Made by a program: the position numbers and the translations under genes. A stretch of 64,000 bases of DNA from Kitasatospora sp. Root107 (GTDB lineage Bacteria > Actinomycetota > Actinomycetes > Streptomycetales > Streptomycetaceae): positions 1-64,000 of the forward strand of contig NZ_LMCT01000007.1 of the NCBI RefSeq assembly GCF_001424875.1. Direction: 5' to 3'. Shown in pieces: positions 20,374 through 31,744 of this stretch. The stretch's first letter is position 1. Each line of letters starts with the position of its first letter. Below the pieces are notes generated by a model. The model saw only the letters and a list, made by a program, of their open reading frames with translations, was not told the origin of the DNA and made no database searches.

Positions 20374-20433
20374 TCTGCGTACCCGCACCCCGTGCCAGAC
20401 TTGATCAACAGTCAGATGGGGGAAGGGACGGTC

Positions 20434-22689
20434 ATGGCCAGGCAGCGGAGCCACGGGGTACTGGCCATGATCGCCGAGGCGCAGCGCCAGCAGGCCCGCG
20501 AACAGGAGGCCAGGCACCGGGCCGCGGCCGCCGCACAGCGGCAGTCGGAGCGGGACCGGCGGGAGGCGCAGCGGGCCGCCGCCCAGGGTGAGCGCGCTGC
20601 CCTGCGGGCGTACCAGCAGGGGCGGGAGGCCGATGCCGCCCGCCGGACGGCGGAGCTGGACGACCAGGTGACCCGGCTCCGGGCGGTGCTGGCCACCGGC
20701 CTGGCCGGCCGGCCGTTCCGGCTGACGGAGCCCCAGCTTCCCTTCCGGCCCCCGCCGTTCGACCCCGGGCCGCTCGGCCTGCCGGTGCCGATGCCGGACC
20801 AGGGCCGCTATCTGGTGCCGCCGCCGACCGGCCTGCAGGCCCTGAATCCGGTCGCCCGGCAGCAGTACGACCAGCAGGCGGCCCAGGCCAGGGCGCACTT
20901 CGAGCAGGACTGGTACCGGGCCAGGCAGGCGGAGGACGAGCGGCTGCGCCGGCTGGCGGACTACCGGGCGCAGTACGACGCCTGGGTGGCGGAGAACCAC
21001 CGGCTGGCCGCCGACCGGGCCCGGCAGGCGGCCCGGCTCACCACCGACCTGGCCACCGGTACGCCCGACGCGGTGGTGGAGCTCTTCGAGACGGTGCTGC
21101 GGGCCGGGGAGGACTGGCCGGCCGACTTCCCGTGCGACGGCGTCGTCGGCTGGGACCGGCCGGGCCGCCAACTGGTGGTGGACTGGGAGCTGCCGGGCCC
21201 CGACTGCATCCCGGCGGTGTCCCGGGTGCGCTACGTGAAGAGCGACGACCGCGAGGCGGAGGTCGCCAGGCCGGCTGCCGAACGCAAGGCGCTCTACCGT
21301 GAGCTGCTGGCCCAGTGCGCGCTGCGGCTGCTCGCCGAGCTGTTCCGGGCCGATCAGGGCGGGCTGCTCGGCTCGGTGGTGTTCAACGGCTATGTCGAGG
21401 GCACCGATCCGGCCAGCGGGCGAGACGAGCAGCGGTACCTGGTCGCGGTGACGGTCCGTCGGGAGGACTTCCTGGCGGTCGCGCTGGACCGGGTGGCCCC
21501 GGTCGACTGCCTGCTGGACGGGCTGCGCGGCCGGCTGTCGGCCCGGCCGGAGAAGCTGGAGCCGGTGCCCACCACCCGGCTGGCCGCCGAGGCCGACACG
21601 TACGACGCCCACCAGGAGGCCGCCGGGGACGATCCCGACCTGTTCGAGATGGACCCGATCGACTTCGAGCACCTGATCGCCGAGCTGTTCCGGCGGCGCG
21701 GCTTCCGTACCAGGACCACCGCCCGCAGCGGGGACCAGGGCGTCGACGTGATCGCCGAGGACCCGGACCCGGTGACGGGCGGTCAGATCGTCATCCAGGC
21801 GAAGCGCTACCGCCGGACGGTCGACCCCACCGCCGTGCGCGATCTGGACGCCACCCGGGTCCACCACGGCGCCACCAAGGGCATCCTGGTCACCACCTCC
21901 GGCTTCGGCCCCGACTCGTACCGCTGGGTCGAGGGCAAACCGCTGACCCTGGTGGACGGGCCGATGCTGGTCGGGCTGCTGCGGGAGCACGGCCTGGCCG
22001 GCCGCCTCGGCGGCACCCCGGCCGGGCCCGGCCAGTCCCCGGGGTCGGCCGATCCGACCGTGCTGCTGCCGGTGGACGGCTTCGGGCGGTCGGGGCAGGA
22101 GCCGACCGTGCTGCTTCCGCTGCCGGTCGAGCCGGTGCCCGAGCCGGTCGTGCCGGAGCCGGTCGAGCTGCTGCCCGGGCAGAACGCGCCGCTGTCGGAG
22201 CGGGCGGCGGCCGAGCTCTCGGTGCGCTTCGACTCCGCCGGGCCCGAGCCCGACCTGACCCTGCTGCTGCTCACGGCGGACGGCACGGTCCGCGACGACC
22301 AGGACTTCGTCTTCTACCACCAACCCACCGCCGCCGACGGCGCGGTGACACTGGGTCCGAAGGAGCAGACCGGCCCGGACGGGCACGGCGAGAGCGCCAC
22401 GGTGCGGTTGGCAGCACTGCCGACGGCGGTGGAACGGGTGGCGGTCTCGGTCACCATGGACGCCGACGGCACGGCGACCTGCGGCGAACTCCGCGCGGCC
22501 CGGCTGTCGGTGAGCGCGGCGGACGGCGCGGCCTGGACGTTCCGGCCGCCGGCCGACCCGGAGGTCTCGGCGATGCTGGTCGCCGAGTTCTACCGGCACC
22601 GGGGCGGCTGGAAGCTCCGCGCCGTCGGCCAGGGCTGGTCCGGCGGCCTGGCGGGCCTGGCCCGCGCCCACGGGGTGGACGTCGGCTGA
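20434..22689 (+). CDS. Coiled-coil / Mrr-type restriction endonuclease / TerD fusion protein
   Basis: The protein has 751 residues in four parts. Residues 1-90 are a Gln/Arg/Ala/Glu-rich coiled coil. Residues 100-400 are a mixed region with a second coiled coil (YRARQAEDERLRRLADY) and a beta-rich section. Residues 405-520 are an Mrr-like PD-(D/E)XK nuclease: DFEHLIAELFRRRGFRT, GDQGVDVIAE (catalytic Asp near 435), and VIQAKRYRR (QxK near 455-457). Residues 596-751 are a TerD domain: LSVRFDSAGPE, FVFYHQ, and LVAEFYRHRGGWKLRAVG with GLAGLARAHGVDV. A Pro/Val-rich linker joins the last two. ATG 20434 follows GGAAGGGA; an upstream ATG is weaker. It would cut DNA in response to a Ter-type stress signal, which is inference. 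No partner methylase is present. Confidence 0.8.
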   Translation: MARQRSHGVLAMIAEAQRQQAREQEARHRAAAAAQRQSERDRREAQRAAAQGERAALRAYQQGREADAARRTAELDDQVTRLRAVLATGLAGRPFRLTEPQLPFRPPPFDPGPLGLPVPMPDQGRYLVPPPTGLQALNPVARQQYDQQAAQARAHFEQDWYRARQAEDERLRRLADYRAQYDAWVAENHRLAADRARQAARLTTDLATGTPDAVVELFETVLRAGEDWPADFPCDGVVGWDRPGRQLVVDWELPGPDCIPAVSRVRYVKSDDREAEVARPAAERKALYRELLAQCALRLLAELFRADQGGLLGSVVFNGYVEGTDPASGRDEQRYLVAVTVRREDFLAVALDRVAPVDCLLDGLRGRLSARPEKLEPVPTTRLAAEADTYDAHQEAAGDDPDLFEMDPIDFEHLIAELFRRRGFRTRTTARSGDQGVDVIAEDPDPVTGGQIVIQAKRYRRTVDPTAVRDLDATRVHHGATKGILVTTSGFGPDSYRWVEGKPLTLVDGPMLVGLLREHGLAGRLGGTPAGPGQSPGSADPTVLLPVDGFGRSGQEPTVLLPLPVEPVPEPVVPEPVELLPGQNAPLSERAAAELSVRFDSAGPEPDLTLLLLTADGTVRDDQDFVFYHQPTAADGAVTLGPKEQTGPDGHGESATVRLAALPTAVERVAVSVTMDADGTATCGELRAARLSVSAADGAAWTFRPPADPEVSAMLVAEFYRHRGGWKLRAVGQGWSGGLAGLARAHGVDVG

Positions 22690-23621: not shown

Positions 23622-23842
23622 AGGCGGCTCACGGTAATGTGCCGTCCGCCCCCCGGCCACTGAATATTCGGGTGACCTGAAGAAAGCTCAAGTTCAGCTC
23701 TGAGAATGCCTTTCCCTGGTTGGCAGCGAACGCCCGGGGATACACCCTCTAGCAACGGGACGGCGCGCGAGGACGCCGCCGGTTCCGTCCGAAACCTCAC
23801 CTCCGCCGGACTCTCCGGCGAGCCCTCCGAAGGGGGCGTCAG

Positions 23843-24679
23843 ATGACATCTGCTGCACTCGGAGTCGGCATCGGCTGGCGCTCCGAGATCGACACCGTGG
23901 TGGAACGGCTGCCCGGCCTGGACTGGGTCGAGGTGGTCGCCGAGAATCTCTGCCCGGACGACCTCAGGGAGGGCCTACTGCCCGAGTCGCTCCGGGTCCT
24001 GCGCGAGCGTGGCGTCCAGCTGGTCCCGCACGGGGTCGCGCTCGGCCTCGGCGGGGCCGAGCTCCCGGACCGGGCCCGGCTGGAGCGGCTCGCGCTGACT
24101 GCCGGCGCGCTCGGCGCGCCGCTGGTCACCGAGCACCTGGCGTTCGTCCGGGCGGGCGGCCGGGAGGCCGGGCACCTGCTGCCGGTGCCGCGCTCCCGGG
24201 ACGCGCTGCGGGTGATCGCGGAGAACGTCCGGATCGCCCAGCAGGAGCTGCCGGTGCCGCTCGCGCTGGAGAACATCGCGGCCCACTTCAGCTGGCCCGA
24301 GGACGAGTTGACCGAGGGCGAGTTCCTGGCCGAGCTGGTCGAACGGACCGGCGTCCGGCTGCTGATCGACGTGGCCAACCTGCACACCAACCGGGTCAAC
24401 CTCGGCCTGGACGTGGCTGCCGAGCTGGACCGCCTCCCGCTGGAGGCGCTCGCCTACGTGCACGTCGCGGGCGGCGTCGAGCGGGACGGCGTCTGGCACG
24501 ACACCCACGCCCACCCGGTCACCGAACCGGTGCTGGCCGTACTGGCCGAACTGCGCGCCCGGGCCGTGCCGCCCGGCGTACTGCTGGAGCGGGACGACAA
24601 CTTCCCGCCGCCCGCCGAGCTGGCGGGCGAACTGGACGCGATCCGCCGGGTCCTGGAAGGGGCGCCGCACCATGTCTGA
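23843..24679 (+). CDS. DUF692 / MNIO-type multinuclear iron oxygenase
   Basis: This 278-residue TIM-barrel enzyme belongs to the DUF692 family, whose members MbnB and TglH modify Cys residues of peptides with two or three iron atoms. The expected metal ligands are visible: H63 ([10 protein letters not shown]), E97/H98 (VTEHLAF), E143 (ALENIAAHF), D176, N179 and H181 ([12 protein letters not shown]), H207 (YVHVAGG), D220, H222, H224 (HDTHAHPV) and E249 (LLERDDNFP). Start ATG 23843 follows GAAGGGGG. It overlaps the next gene by 8 bases, and three paralogous membrane proteins follow, one with a Cys-rich tail that is the obvious candidate substrate. The reaction here is inferred. Confidence 0.85.
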
Positions 24680-25085
24680 GCACGACGAGTACCTGATCAG
24701 GACCGGCGATCCGGACCTGGTGATGGCCCGCGCCGCACTGGCCGGGCGGCAGAGCGAACTGCTCACCGCCCTGGTGGCCGGGGGGCCGGTCCCGGCCGGG
24801 TTCGACGAGCGGCAGGTCCGGATCCAGATCCACGGCCTGGCCGCCAAGCGCCGCGACACCGTGGCCCGGGTCGACCCCGCACTGGAGCTGATCCTCGGTC
24901 ACGAGTACGGCCCGCTGTTCCTGCGCTACGCCGCCACCCACCCGATGGCCGACGGCTACCGGGCCGACGCCCGCCGCTTCGCCGGCTGGGCCCTCACCGC
25001 CGAACCCACCGCCGACTGGCGCGCCGCCCTGGCACGCCACCTCCGCCCGAAGGACCCGTCCCACCGCCCCTGGTGGCGCCGGTAG
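24672..25085 (+). CDS. SCO6045-like partner protein of the DUF692 enzyme
   Basis: The 137-residue soluble protein overlaps the DUF692 stop (ATGTCTGA), so the two are translationally coupled. Motifs are [66 protein letters not shown], and a basic end HRPWWRR. The pattern PxGFD...L..KR...DGYRADA..FAxWL recalls the small helical proteins that accompany DUF692 enzymes in actinobacteria (S. coelicolor SCO6045 type) and the DUF2063/MbnC-like partners that bind leader peptides elsewhere. I infer a substrate-recognition or enzyme-stabilising role. It has no cysteine, so it is not itself a modified peptide. Confidence 0.7.
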
Positions 25086-25149
25086 CCGCCTGGGCCGTGG
25101 AACGTGAACGAGACGCAACAACCGAGCACCGAGATACGGGGGAAAGTCC

Positions 25150-26190
25150 ATGTGGTACACCGAGTTCGCCTTCGCGGCCGGCGCCCAACTGCTGACCGGC
25201 GTCAACGCGTCGTCCGCCCTGCGCCGCCTGCGGCACGTGCCGCAGCCCCAGGGTCTGCCCGGCCGGGGCCTGCCGCTGCTGGAGACCGCCTTCCTGGCCG
25301 GCGGCCCGGCCCGGGTGGCCGACACCGTGGTGGTCCGGATGCAGCAGGAGGGCCGGCTGATCGTCTCCCGCTCCGGCCAGGTCACCGTGACCGACCGGAA
25401 CGCCCGGGACGCCGTCGAGGCGGTGCTGATCACCGCAGCCGGCTCGTACGGACGGGCCGAACTGTCCACGCTGCGGCGCACCGTGAGCCGCAGTGAGCAC
25501 GTCCAGCGGATCGGGGACGGCCTGGCCGCCCGAGGTCTGATGCGGCGTCCGGAGCTGTACCGGAAGGCGGTGAACGCCCGGAAGCTGCTCTGGTTCGCCC
25601 AGGTCGCGGTGGTCGTCCTCGGGGTGGTGTCCGCTTTCCAGTGGTTCGGGGCCTCCGTCAAGGAGCAGGGCACCGAGATCGCGCCGTTCTTCCCGTTCCT
25701 CGGGCTGCTGCTGGTCGGCCTGTTCTGGCTGGCCGCCACCCGCCCCGAGCGGAGCCGGATCACCCCGGCTGGGGTCAGGCAGCTGGAGCTGATGCGGAAC
25801 GGCTCCCGCCCGTGGGTGCCGGGCGACCAGGCGCTGGTCGGCGGCGCTGTGGTGCTCGGCGCCCTGGCGTTGGAGGGCGTGGTCACGCTGGAGGACGAAG
25901 AACTGCAGGCGGCCCTGACGGCCCGTCCGGTCTTGGGCTCGTCCTCCAGCAGCTCCAGCAGCTCCAGCGGTGACTCCGGCAGCTCGGCCACCTGGTGCTC
26001 CTCGGGCGACCCGGGCAGCTCCGGCGACTCCGGCTCCTCGTCCGGCTGCGGTTCCTCCTCCAGCTGCGGTTCCTCGAGCAGCAACAGCTGCGGCTCGTCC
26101 AGCAGTTCCTCCAGCTGCGGCTCCTCCAGCAGCTCCAGCTGCAGCTCGTCGAGCAGCAGCTGCGGGGGCGGCAGCAGCTGCGGCAGCTGA
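25150..26190 (+). CDS. TIGR04222-like membrane protein with a Ser/Gly/Cys-rich tail (candidate modified substrate)
   Basis: The 346-residue protein has a cytoplasmic N-terminal domain (about 35-140: LPLLETAFLAGGPARVADTV, QQEGRLIVSRSGQVTVTD, a winged-helix-like pattern), then two transmembrane helices (about 147-165 and 180-197), a short conserved segment (DQALVGGAVVLGALALEGVV), and an extreme low-complexity tail at 261-346. The tail is almost only Ser and Gly with eight Cys at 283, 300, 306, 314, 323, 331, 338 and 344. Proteins of this type are annotated as TIGR04222 and neighbour DUF692 genes. I infer that the tail is acted on by the upstream enzyme. ATG 25150 follows GGGGGAAAG. Confidence 0.8.
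   Translation: MWYTEFAFAAGAQLLTGVNASSALRRLRHVPQPQGLPGRGLPLLETAFLAGGPARVADTVVVRMQQEGRLIVSRSGQVTVTDRNARDAVEAVLITAAGSYGRAELSTLRRTVSRSEHVQRIGDGLAARGLMRRPELYRKAVNARKLLWFAQVAVVVLGVVSAFQWFGASVKEQGTEIAPFFPFLGLLLVGLFWLAATRPERSRITPAGVRQLELMRNGSRPWVPGDQALVGGAVVLGALALEGVVTLEDEELQAALTARPVLGSSSSSSSSSSGDSGSSATWCSSGDPGSSGDSGSSSGCGSSSSCGSSSSNSCGSSSSSSSCGSSSSSSCSSSSSSCGGGSSCGS
25936..26190 (+). repeat. Low-complexity coding repeat for the Cys/Ser tail
   Basis: The last 85 codons are built from degenerate AGC/TCC/TCG serine codons broken by TGC and GGC. TGC occurs every 6-9 codons in the distal half. The unit is not an exact tandem repeat, so length changes by slippage are plausible but the codon mix suggests selection on the protein. 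Confidence 0.7.
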
Positions 26191-26220
26191 CCAGGTGACA
26201 CCCACGGGGGGATGATCCAC

Positions 26221-27126
26221 ATGCAGTACGTCGAACTCGCCGTCGCAGCCGGGCTGGTGGCTGTCACCGGCCTCTGGTCCACGGCCGCGAACCACCGGCT
26301 GAAGCACCCGAAGAACCCGCAGCGGACGCCGCACAACGGGCTGCCACTGCTGGAGGCGGCCTACCTGGCCGGCGGCCCGGCCCGGGTCGCGGACACCGTG
26401 CTCGCCCGGATGGAGCAGGAGGGCCGGCTGATCGTCCCGCGCACGGGTCAGGCCACCCTGACCGACCGTACCTCGCACGATCCGGTCGAGGCCGATCTGA
26501 TCCGGGTGGTCGGCCCGACCGGACGGGCCCACCCGGCCACCCTGCGACGGGCGGTGCTGACCAGTCGCCACCTACGCCTGATCGACCGGCGGTTGACCGA
26601 CCGGGGCCTGCTCCACCGGCCCCGGCAGCAGCGGGCAGCGGTCCGGGCGAACCTCCTGCTGCTGGGCGCAGTCGGCCTCGGGGCCGCACTCGGGGCGGTC
26701 GCCGTCACCCGGCGGCTGCTCGCCCCCGGCGACGGCCTGCTGCCGCTGCTCGCCTTCCTGGTCCTGCTGCCCGCCGGACTGCTCTGGCAGCGCCGGACCT
26801 CCCCCGGCCGAGGGCGGATCACCCGGGCCGGCCACGAGCAGCTGGAGCACCTGCGCACCGGCACCGCCCGCCCGGCCCCTCACCCGGCCCCCAGCCAGGC
26901 CGCAGCCGGCCGCAGGGCCGCGCCCCCCAGCACCGCGCCACTCGGCTCGGCGCCGAACGCGGGCGAGCAACTCGGTGTGGCCATCGCCGAGTTGGTCCTG
27001 TACGGCACCCTGGCGGAGGACCCCGCCGACTGGTCGGCGGACCTGGACGGGACGACCTACGGCGACAGCGGCTCATCGGACTCCGGGGGCTTCGACAGCT
27101 GCGGCTCCGGCGGGGGCGGCGACTGA
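26221..27126 (+). CDS. TIGR04222-like membrane protein, second paralogue
   Basis: The 301-residue protein repeats the architecture of the upstream gene: LPLLEAAYLAGGPARVADTVL, MEQEGRLIVPRTGQATLTD and a winged-helix-like domain, then two hydrophobic helices (VRANLLLLGAVGLGAALGAV and LPLLAFLVLLPAGLL), and EQLGVAIAELVLYGTLAEDP. Its tail is much shorter, YGDSGSSDSGGFDSCGSGGGGD, with a single Cys. I prefer the ATG at 26221, nine bases after a run of six G; the ATG at 26212 abuts that run. Thirty bases separate it from the previous gene, so one operon is likely. It may be a second, minimal substrate of the DUF692 enzyme or a structural partner. Confidence 0.75.
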   Translation: MQYVELAVAAGLVAVTGLWSTAANHRLKHPKNPQRTPHNGLPLLEAAYLAGGPARVADTVLARMEQEGRLIVPRTGQATLTDRTSHDPVEADLIRVVGPTGRAHPATLRRAVLTSRHLRLIDRRLTDRGLLHRPRQQRAAVRANLLLLGAVGLGAALGAVAVTRRLLAPGDGLLPLLAFLVLLPAGLLWQRRTSPGRGRITRAGHEQLEHLRTGTARPAPHPAPSQAAAGRRAAPPSTAPLGSAPNAGEQLGVAIAELVLYGTLAEDPADWSADLDGTTYGDSGSSDSGGFDSCGSGGGGD

Positions 27127-27206
27127 CGCGGCCACCCGGGCCTGGGCCCGTCCACGGACCGGACGGACAGTCACAGTTCGGTACCGCAGTCCAGGAATCC
27201 TTTCCA

Positions 27207-27230
27207 TTGACACAGGTACCGGTCTAGAAC
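27207..27230 (+). promoter_or_regulatory. Candidate promoter before the third membrane paralogue
   Basis: TTGACA at 27207-27212 and TAGAAC at 27225-27230, six bases before ATG 27237, suggest a leaderless transcript. The 12-base spacer is shorter than the usual 17, so confidence is low. Confidence 0.3.
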
Positions 27231-27236
27231 AAGGCC

Positions 27237-28034
27237 ATGTGGTTGCTCCTGCTCGCCCCTGCCCTGCTCGCGGCCGTACTCTCCTGCTTGCGGCTGGTCC
27301 GGGCCGCAGCCACCGCGGACTCGCTGACCGGGCCGGCCCGGTCGCACCCCGTGGACCCGGTCGGGGTCGGCCTCTACGAGACCGCCTATCTGGCCGGCGG
27401 CCCGGTCCGGGTGGTCGAGCTGGCCCTGGTGCTGATGACCGGCCGGGGGCGGCTGCACCTGGCGCACACCGGCTGGACCTCGGTGGTCGATCCGCACGGC
27501 CGGAGCCGCCTGGAGCGGGCCCTGATCACCGCGATCGGCCCCGAGGGGCAGAGCCGCACCGGCGAGCTCCGGGACCGGCTGGCGGCTCACCCGATCGTGC
27601 TGGAGATCGGCGGACGGCTGGTCCAGGCCGGTCTGGCCACCCCGCCGATGGTCCGGGAGCGAACCCTGCTGGCGGTCCGTCAGGTCCGGCGGGCCCTGCT
27701 GCTGTCGGTCGCGCTGCTCGGCGCCGCGCTGGCCGTGGCCGCCCCCGGCACCGGTGACGCCGGGTCGGCGGTGGCCTGGTTCTCGCTGCCGATCATCCTG
27801 ACCAGCGGCACCCTGCTGATGGCCCGGGTGGACGTCCACCCGTACACCCGCTGGGCCACCCCGGCCGGCCAGGACCTGCTGAACGCCGCCCGCCTCCCGC
27901 ACCAGGCCGGCGACCCCACCGAGCCGCCCCCCGGCCTGCCCGACGCGGCCGAACGCGAACTCCTCACCGCCGTCGCCGTGGTGGGCCCGGCCGCCCTGCC
28001 GGACGCCCGGCTGCGGGCGGCCCTGCGCAACTGA
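27237..28034 (+). CDS. TIGR04222-like membrane protein, third paralogue without Cys tail
   Basis: This 265-residue protein opens with a membrane helix (LLLLAPALLAAVLSCLRLV), then GLYETAYLAGGPVRVVELALV and MTGRGRLHLAHTGWTSVVD, a degenerate version of the shared N-terminal domain. Two further helices follow (LLLSVALLGAALAVAAPG and WFSLPIILTSGTLLMARV), then RELLTAVAVVGPAALPD, matching the conserved segment of its two paralogues. It ends there, so the Ser/Gly/Cys tail is missing. It may be a tail-free scaffold or a relic of duplication. The ATG has only AAGG nearby, and a TTGACA and a TAGAAC lie just upstream, suggesting a separate promoter. Confidence 0.72.
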   Translation: MWLLLLAPALLAAVLSCLRLVRAAATADSLTGPARSHPVDPVGVGLYETAYLAGGPVRVVELALVLMTGRGRLHLAHTGWTSVVDPHGRSRLERALITAIGPEGQSRTGELRDRLAAHPIVLEIGGRLVQAGLATPPMVRERTLLAVRQVRRALLLSVALLGAALAVAAPGTGDAGSAVAWFSLPIILTSGTLLMARVDVHPYTRWATPAGQDLLNAARLPHQAGDPTEPPPGLPDAAERELLTAVAVVGPAALPDARLRAALRN

Positions 28035-29636: not shown

Positions 29637-30350
29637 TCAGGCCAGGCCGTTGAGCAGGTCCGCGATCGGCTTGCGACGGCCGGTGTAGAACGGGACCTCC
29701 TCGCGGACGTGCAGCCGGGCCCGGGACGGGCGCAGGTCGCGCATCAGGTCGACGATCCGGTGCAGCTCGTCCGCCTCGAAGGCGAGCAGCCACTCGTAGT
29801 CGCCGAGCGCGAACGAGGCCACCGTGTTGGCCCGCACGTCGGGGTAGCCCCGGGCCATCTTGCCGTGCTCGGCGAGCATCGCGCGCCGCTCGTCGTCCGG
29901 CAGCAGGTACCACTCGTAGGAGCGCACGAACGGGTACACGCAGATGTACTCGCGCGGCTCCTCGTCGGCGAGGAACGCCGGGATGTGCGACTTGTTGAAC
30001 TCGGCCGGGCGGTGCAGCGCCATGTTCGACCAGACCGGCTCCAGCCGACGGCCGAGGGCGGTGCGACGGAAGCGGTTGTACGCCTCCTGGAGGTCGTCCG
30101 AGTCCTCGGCGTGCCACCAGATCATCAGGTCCGCGTCGGCCCGCAGGCCGGAGACGTCGTAACTGCCGCGCACCGTGACGTCCTTGGCGGCGAGCTGCGC
30201 GAACAGCTCGTCGACCTCGGCGGCCAGCGCGGTCCGGTCCTCGGGCAGCTCGGCCTTGAGCTTGAACACCGACCACATGGTGTAGCGGATGACCTGGTTG
30301 AGGTCGCGGGCCTTCTTCTTCGCGGGCTGCTGTTCAGCGGACTCAGTCAT
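29637..30350 (-). CDS. hemQ: Coproheme decarboxylase / chlorite-dismutase-like HemQ
   Basis: HemQ converts coproheme to haem b using H2O2, the last step of the coproporphyrin-dependent pathway of Gram-positive bacteria. The 237-residue protein contains [50 protein letters not shown], the haem-ligand region [23 protein letters not shown], and a C-terminal [12 protein letters not shown]. The ATG at 30350 overlaps the hemG stop (ATGA), so the two are coupled and form an operon. Length and motifs are complete. Confidence 0.93.
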
Positions 30351-31744
30351 GCGCCCATTCTCCCTTCCCTGACGGGCGCACCGGCGCCCGGGGTCAACAC
30401 CTCGTTGACGGCGCGCCGGGCACTGGCGACACAGGCCGGGATGCCGACCCCGTCGTAGGCCGCGCCACAGACGGCCAGACCGGTCCCGGCCACCGCCGCC
30501 CGGATCCTGGCCACCCGGTCCAGATGCCCGACCGGATACTGCGGCAGACCGCCGGCCCAGCGGGTCACCGCACTGTCGTACGGCTTCGCGTGCAGGCCGA
30601 CCGCGTCGGCCAGGTCGGCCAGCGAGCGGGTCACCAGCTCCTGGTCCGAGAGACCGAGCGCGGCCTCCTCCCGGTGCCGACCGAGCGAGGTACGGAGCAG
30701 GAAGCTGTCCGGCGCCGAACGCTCCAGCCAGCCCCACTTGTTGGAGGAGAAGGTGGACGCCTTGATCTGCCGGCCGTCCACCGGCGGCACCAGGAAGCCG
30801 CTGCCGGTGAGCCCGGCGTCCAGGTCGGCCCGGCGGAACGCCATCGTCACCAGGGCCATTCCGGCGTACTCCACCGTGCCCAACTCGGCGGCCGCAGCCG
30901 GGACTTCGGCCGCCAGCAGCTTCGCCGCCTGCGGGGCCGGCACCGCCAGGATCACCGCGTCGGCATGTAGCACCTCGCCGTTGCTGACGATCCGCCAGCC
31001 CTCGGGGGTGCGGCGCAGCTCCTGGACCGGACTGTCGGTGCGCAGCTCGGCCCCGTTCTTCCGGCAGGCCGCCGCGACCGCCTCCGGGAGAGTGCCAAGA
31101 CCGCCGCGCAGGCCCTGGAAGACCGGGCCGCTACTGCTCGGACGGGCGATCAGTTCGCGCACCCCGGCGGCCAGCGAACCGCCCCGCTGCGCGATCGGCA
31201 GCAGCGCCGGGACGGCCGCGCGCAGCGAGATCTCGTCCGCATGCCCCGCGTACACCCCGCCGAGCAGCGGCTCCACCAGCCGGTCCACCACCTCACGGCC
31301 CAGCTTCGCCGCCACGTACGCCCCGATCGAGACGTCCGCCGCGACCTCGGCCTCGCCCTCCTGCCCGGCCCGCGCCACGCCCTCGGCGGTGAGCACCCCG
31401 GACTCCGCAAGCGCCGTCAGATCCCCCGGCACTCCCATCAACTGCCCACCGGGCAGCGGCCGCAGGGCACCCCTGGTCCAGATCGCCGCCTTCGCCGTAC
31501 TCGGCGGCTCCAGCTCCCCCGCCAGCCCGACCTCCCGGGCCAGCTCCACCGCCTCCGGCCGCCGCGCGAGCATCGACTCGGCCCCGAGGTCCACCCGGAC
31601 CCCACCGACCTCGCCGCCCTGCAACTTCCCGCCCAGCCGCCCGCTCGCCTCCAGCAGGGTGACCTTCGCCGCCCCACTCGCCAGCCACGCCGCGGTCAGC
31701 CCCGCGATACCGCCACCGATCACCACGACCCGCGTCTCTGCCAT
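30347..31744 (-). CDS. hemG: Coproporphyrinogen III / protoporphyrinogen oxidase
   Basis: This 465-residue FAD enzyme oxidises coproporphyrinogen III in the actinobacterial haem pathway (also called HemY). The N-terminal [18 protein letters not shown] is the FAD Rossmann motif, [14 protein letters not shown] follows, and [19 protein letters not shown] is the family signature. The C-terminus has [29 protein letters not shown], the second FAD contact. It is translationally coupled to hemQ. The gene is widely named hemG or hemY in Streptomyces; it is not the E. coli flavodoxin-type HemG. Confidence 0.92.

Follow-up and report, generated by a model that had tools for sequence, protein, structure and literature searches.

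Results

Organization of the operon

Within the window, by which we mean the whole 64,000-nucleotide stretch of Kitasatospora sp. Root107 DNA that was analysed, we confirmed five co-directional open reading frames, here called M, P, T1, T2 and T3 (Table 1). An earlier reading made from the letters of this DNA (the sequence-only reading) had described them as a DUF692/MNIO enzyme, a partner and three TIGR04222-like membrane proteins, and both the open reading frames and the family matches bear this description out. The start codon of P lies 8 nt upstream of the end of M, and the two genes overlap. The Cys pattern was also as described: T1 has eight Cys, all of them within its last 90 residues, T2 has a single tail Cys, and the only Cys of T3 lies in its first membrane helix and none in a tail. 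The closest relatives come from Kitasatospora, and no second PF05114 gene or further TIGR04222 gene was found in the Root107 genome. Genes similar in appearance to the downstream haem genes of Table 1 flank TIGR04222 loci in relatives.

Table 1. Features of the operon and of its surroundings, in positions of the window.
Feature	Position	Strand	Basis or remark
Single protein with an Mrr-type restriction endonuclease domain and a TerD domain	20392..22689	+	
Conserved element AANCTCARRTNNNNCTCTGA, operator-like, 20 bp	23684..23703	+	140 nt upstream of the M start codon
M, MNIO (DUF692) enzyme, 278 aa	23843..24679	+	PF05114, 1.1e-77
P, PME-type 2 partner protein, 137 aa	24672..25085	+	DUF2063-matching orthologues; structural model
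T1, TIGR04222 membrane protein with an eight-Cys Ser/Gly tail, 346 aa	25150..26190	+	TIGR04222, 98 bits; model
Ser/Gly/Cys tail of T1, WC motif then spaced Cys; proposed MNIO target	25921..26187	+	tail statistics
T2, TIGR04222 paralogue with one tail Cys	26212..27126	+	87.9 bits; 43% identical to T1
T3, TIGR04222 paralogue without a tail	27237..28034	+	127.8 bits
368-aa protein with an N-terminal signal-like segment	28484..29590	+	no Pfam/NCBIfam match
Chlorite-dismutase-family (HemQ-like) and amine-oxidoreductase-family (protoporphyrinogen-oxidase-like) proteins	29637..31744	-	downstream

The enzyme and its partner

In a profile search M scored 261.4 bits against PF05114, whose gathering score is 25, and it thus belongs to the MNIO superfamily, whose further marks are the binding of two or three irons and the oxidation of a peptide. 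Its best NCBIfam match was BufB (NF050167), at 185.8 bits and below the curated score of 310; HvfB (NF003818), at 148.6 bits, also fell below its curated score of 360. Among proteins of known structure, its relatives in the PDB include TglH (3.2e-25), 3BWW (4.8e-21) and MbnB. The sequence-only reading had credited the enzyme with a full set of candidate iron ligands and had held that their loss in orthologues would speak against its proposal. The candidate metal ligands (H63, H98, H111, E143, N144, D176, N179, H181, H207, D220, H222, H224, E249 and D251), assigned by conservation and not mapped on coordinates, are kept in 183-186 of 186 M homologues, including those of the clade without Cys tails described below.

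P itself gave no Pfam match, but DUF2063 was matched by 7 of 46 P orthologues (best value 4.7e-6). When its structural model (pLDDT 89) was searched with VIA-align, the top two rows were MbnC (Z 5.9) and TglI (Z 5.1), both known MNIO partners, although these Z values are modest. Judged by its orthologues and this model, P is a PME-type 2 partner, that is, an MNIO-linked protein that has no DUF2063 match of its own and a DUF2063/TglI/MbnC-like structure.

Predicted topology of the TIGR04222 proteins

All three T proteins pass the curated cut-off of 43 bits for TIGR04222, a family that carries the NCBIfam name near_uncomplex. The sequence-only reading had given the T proteins two membrane helices and a winged-helix-like domain; the number of helices needs correction, and the domain could not be tied to a known fold. 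The T1 model has long helices at residues 2-28, 134-167 and 180-196 and only short ones after the last of these (TM3), which points to three membrane helices in the T proteins, the first of them N-terminal. The folded domain between TM1 and TM2 matched no known fold; Foldseek and VIA-align searches with the T1 model returned only unrelated long-helix matches, and we rejected them. A weak collinear likeness to GPP34/GOLPH3 (PF05719; hhalign probability 40%, 72 columns), together with a PF05719 match in one of 87 T-family members (0.0038), may be taken as a lead only.

We then looked at the distribution of positive charge. In the Cys-tailed proteins of loci with the order M-P-T, Lys and Arg together account for 0.014 per residue at the N-terminus, 0.242 after TM1, 0.300 before TM2, 0.048 in the TM2-TM3 loop and 0.268 after TM3, and the side on which the tail lies is the richer one in 98 of 98 such proteins and in 22 of 22 with the order T-M-P. 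By the positive-inside rule, this distribution would make the folded domain as well as the tail cytoplasmic. The tail had been proposed to sit at the surface or at the inner face; the charges favour the second placing and not the first. We consequently favour the cytoplasmic side for the T1 tail, contrary to Antoine et al. 2025 (PMC12452194), who predict extracytoplasmic TIGR04222 tails from model topology; here one prediction stands against another. T1 has a hydrophobic stretch after TM3 that could pass for a fourth helix, and a simple hydropathy count gives four segments in half of the Cys-tailed T proteins. The aligned stretch is polar in Streptomyces orthologues, however, and the T1 model gives it a helix of 10 residues.

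Composition of the Cys tail

Across 95 distinct tails of the M-P-T order, Gly comes directly after 697 of 832 Cys (84%), only 4 of 737 neighbouring pairs have their Cys within 3 residues of each other, and a WC[AGS] motif is present near the tail start in 87. An earlier set of 70 tails gave a 7-fold enrichment of Gly versus Ser after Cys over the tail background. Since the tail repeats may spread by slippage, these counts are not independent events. Such spaced Cys are unlike close-pair metal or thiol-redox motifs. Isolated Cys-Gly sites of this kind recall methanobactin cores, and they also recall the EGKCG repeats that PMC12452194 gives for oxazolin-type precursors. The draft contigs L091, L097 and L139 break off in the region of the T1 gene or of its low-complexity tail. 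Cys tails may therefore be under-counted in databases.

Distribution in Streptomycetaceae

The sequence-only reading had asked how far the cluster is conserved. It recurs at ~180 related loci, so the pattern is not a product of chance, and Streptomycetaceae commonly arrange the genes as M-P-T(Cys)-T(no Cys) (50 of 80 related loci). A second layout, T(Cys)-M-P, has a shorter tail and occurs in separate clades. T1 is 43% identical to T2 and 27% identical to T3, and within our sample a third T, placed between the one with and the one without a Cys tail, was seen only in Root107 and in its nearest relative, L249, whose M is 98% identical. T2 is for this reason most simply explained as a recent copy of T1, and it is probably a local duplicate.

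From 150 Streptomycetaceae genomes we took an even sample, in which 102 M loci were left after removal of those at contig ends: 75 with a Cys-tailed T, 18 with a Cys-less T only and 9 with M-P alone. A Cys-tailed T was present at 75 of 93 loci with M adjoining versus 0 of 15 T loci in genomes that lack this MNIO (Fisher p 1.2e-9, a value that ignores kinship). The T proteins at all 15 of the latter loci are Cys-less, and a Cys-less T is also the second T at most M-P-T(Cys) loci. In the clade that holds the Root107 operon and other Kitasatospora-type sequences, the Cys tail is present at all 37 loci.

A clade without Cys tails

According to the sequence-only reading, orthologous clusters without a Cys-rich partner would argue against its proposal. 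Such clusters do occur: no Cys-tailed T was found at 27 of the 102 M loci, where the M ligands and purifying selection are retained. A supported Streptomyces clade holds 16 of the 27, 14 of them with a Cys-less T and 2 with M-P alone; in this clade the metal ligands of M are kept and its dN/dS is 0.126, compared with 0.20 to 0.24 in the Cys-tailed groups. A fuller search found no further T above the cut-off in ten genomes that have M and no Cys-tailed T; the same holds for six genomes of the clade that have a Cys-less T only. A weak extra TIGR04222 match in L358 was discarded, as it does not resemble a T protein. Six genomes without a Cys-tailed T were scanned for Cys-Gly repeat DNA, which was no more frequent than in the reversed control, and no Cys-rich open reading frame was found near the M-P pairs that lack such a T, apart from a marginal stretch in L103 that lies upstream, is unlike the T tails and was likewise rejected. 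Given the retained ligands, the low dN/dS and the failure to find a further T, M must serve a purpose in this clade that is independent of a TIGR04222 Cys tail. The Cys tail is thus probably a substrate of M, but it cannot, on these comparisons, be the sole reason why M is kept across the family.

At many loci of this clade (L132, L133, L144, L258, L259 and others) P is followed by a gene for a DUF4142 membrane protein, which occupies the position of the Cys-tailed T, and then by the Cys-less T. In L147 a protein that looks DUF4142-like is encoded upstream of a Cys-less T without the MNIO.

The upstream element

The core of AANCTCARRTNNNNCTCTGA precedes 157 of 186 M genes with fixed internal spacing and is absent from the T-M-P layout. 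In the 8.2 Mb of its own genome the element has 1 match; the 150 genomes gave 105 matches, and a reversed control pattern gave 0. Of these 105, 88 are near M or T genes, 76 by M and 12 by T genes without an adjoining M, so that the element also precedes Cys-less T genes in the absence of the MNIO; one remaining match lies upstream of a further T-like gene (L347). The element looks like a site for an activator or a repressor. A simple scan found neither a sigma-70-like promoter nor a terminator, and a search of the literature for variants of the element sequence returned nothing. SCO6045, a putative M orthologue that we set aside, is among the genes changed in a redox/haem regulon study (PMC4991794). 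In L341, L342, L343 and L345 the element adjoins a gene that reads like glyoxylate carboligase, near 2.9-3.1 kb in the motif orientation; downstream of this gene the DNA is rich in hairpins and shows no obvious gene, and a small RNA unit may lie there.

Discussion

Antoine et al. 2025 (PMC12452194) name TIGR04222 proteins with PME-type 2 partners as probable MNIO substrates and report that C-proximal Cys are missing from more than a quarter of the TIGR04222 proteins. Because they already give the tail-as-substrate reading, the Root107 operon is a member of a published kind. It shares with those clusters the MNIO, the PME-type 2 partner, a Ser/Gly Cys-tailed membrane protein and the lack of a signal peptide precursor. 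It differs by the order M-P-T(Cys)-T, by one additional T copy poor in Cys and by a tail predicted to be inside. What we add is the predicted membrane side, the statistics that tie Cys tails to M, the clade without such tails and the shared element; the last two go unmentioned in the passages of their paper used here. Among other known systems, bufferins (BufA with BufBC) likewise combine an MNIO with a partner and a proposed Cys-derived modification, but their substrate is a secreted peptide, whereas the one proposed here is a membrane protein. Methanobactin MbnBC and pearlin TglHI are two-protein MNIO holoenzymes whose partners, MbnC and TglI, P resembles; their substrates are small peptides and not a membrane protein of 346 residues.

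Our main reading, to which we give a probability of roughly 0.55 as a whole, is that M pairs with P in the cytoplasm to give an MNIO holoenzyme like MbnBC and TglHI, whose substrate would be the C-terminal tail of T1. T1 would be a three-helix protein with its N-terminus outside and its folded domain and tail in the cytoplasm, where M may oxidise the tail Cys of the S-C-G units; the products could be thiooxazole or oxazolone-thioamide groups like those of bufferins and oxazolins. The result would be a group of soft-metal ligands anchored in the membrane at its inner face, which may buffer copper or a similar metal, or take part in redox sensing. T3 would be the family's older core form, free of tail Cys, and may partner T1, and the dedicated promoter element would serve a putative regulator in co-regulating the gene set. 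Read as the MNIO target, the tail proposed by the sequence-only reading gains from the occurrence of Cys tails only beside M, from the S-C-G pattern and from the likeness of P to MbnC and TglI, and it loses from the 27 loci without a Cys-tailed T. More tentatively, and with clearly less confidence than in the main reading, the tail, modified at many Cys, could stay anchored at the inner face as a metal or redox device, while the element is common to other TIGR04222 genes and M and P have switched to a target without Cys in the Streptomyces clade.

The placing predicted in PMC12452194 leads to a different outcome, in which modification takes place in the cytoplasm or as the protein inserts, and the tail ends outside, as a bufferin-like metal chelator at the surface or on the periplasmic side. 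The hydrophobic stretch after TM3 of T1 and the four hydropathy segments in half of the Cys proteins would suit it, but we regard it as unlikely in view of the positive charges that adjoin the tail in every protein of both layouts and of the polar residues and short modelled helix at the stretch in question. It is about equally doubtful that M acts on another co-kept protein, be it T3, the DUF4142 protein or an unlinked one, and that the Cys tail stays unmodified and serves as a thiol or metal buffer. Such a target would account for the persistence of M and P under purifying selection without a Cys tail and for the DUF4142 gene between P and the Cys-less T in the Cys-less clade, and Asp, Asn and Phe are further residues on which known MNIOs work (PMC12452194). 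It fits poorly with the lack, in our sample, of any Cys tail without this MNIO, with spaced S-C-G repeats that lack the close Cys pairs of the usual metal or thiol-redox motifs, and with M-P pairs that stand alone at some loci. That the tail is a neutral low-complexity extension without specific chemistry seems very improbable: its Ser/Gly repeats do change fast in length and order among species, but the number and spacing of Cys, the Gly that follows and the WC motif persist through these changes, and the presence of the tail tracks M.

If the tail is modified as the main reading proposes, an MNIO works here on a full-size membrane protein and not on a peptide destined for cleavage and export. 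The membrane side of the tail decides whether the envelope or the cytoplasm would be shielded from metals, the element offers a handle on when the operon switches on, and the Cys-less clade is a natural test for a second substrate of M.
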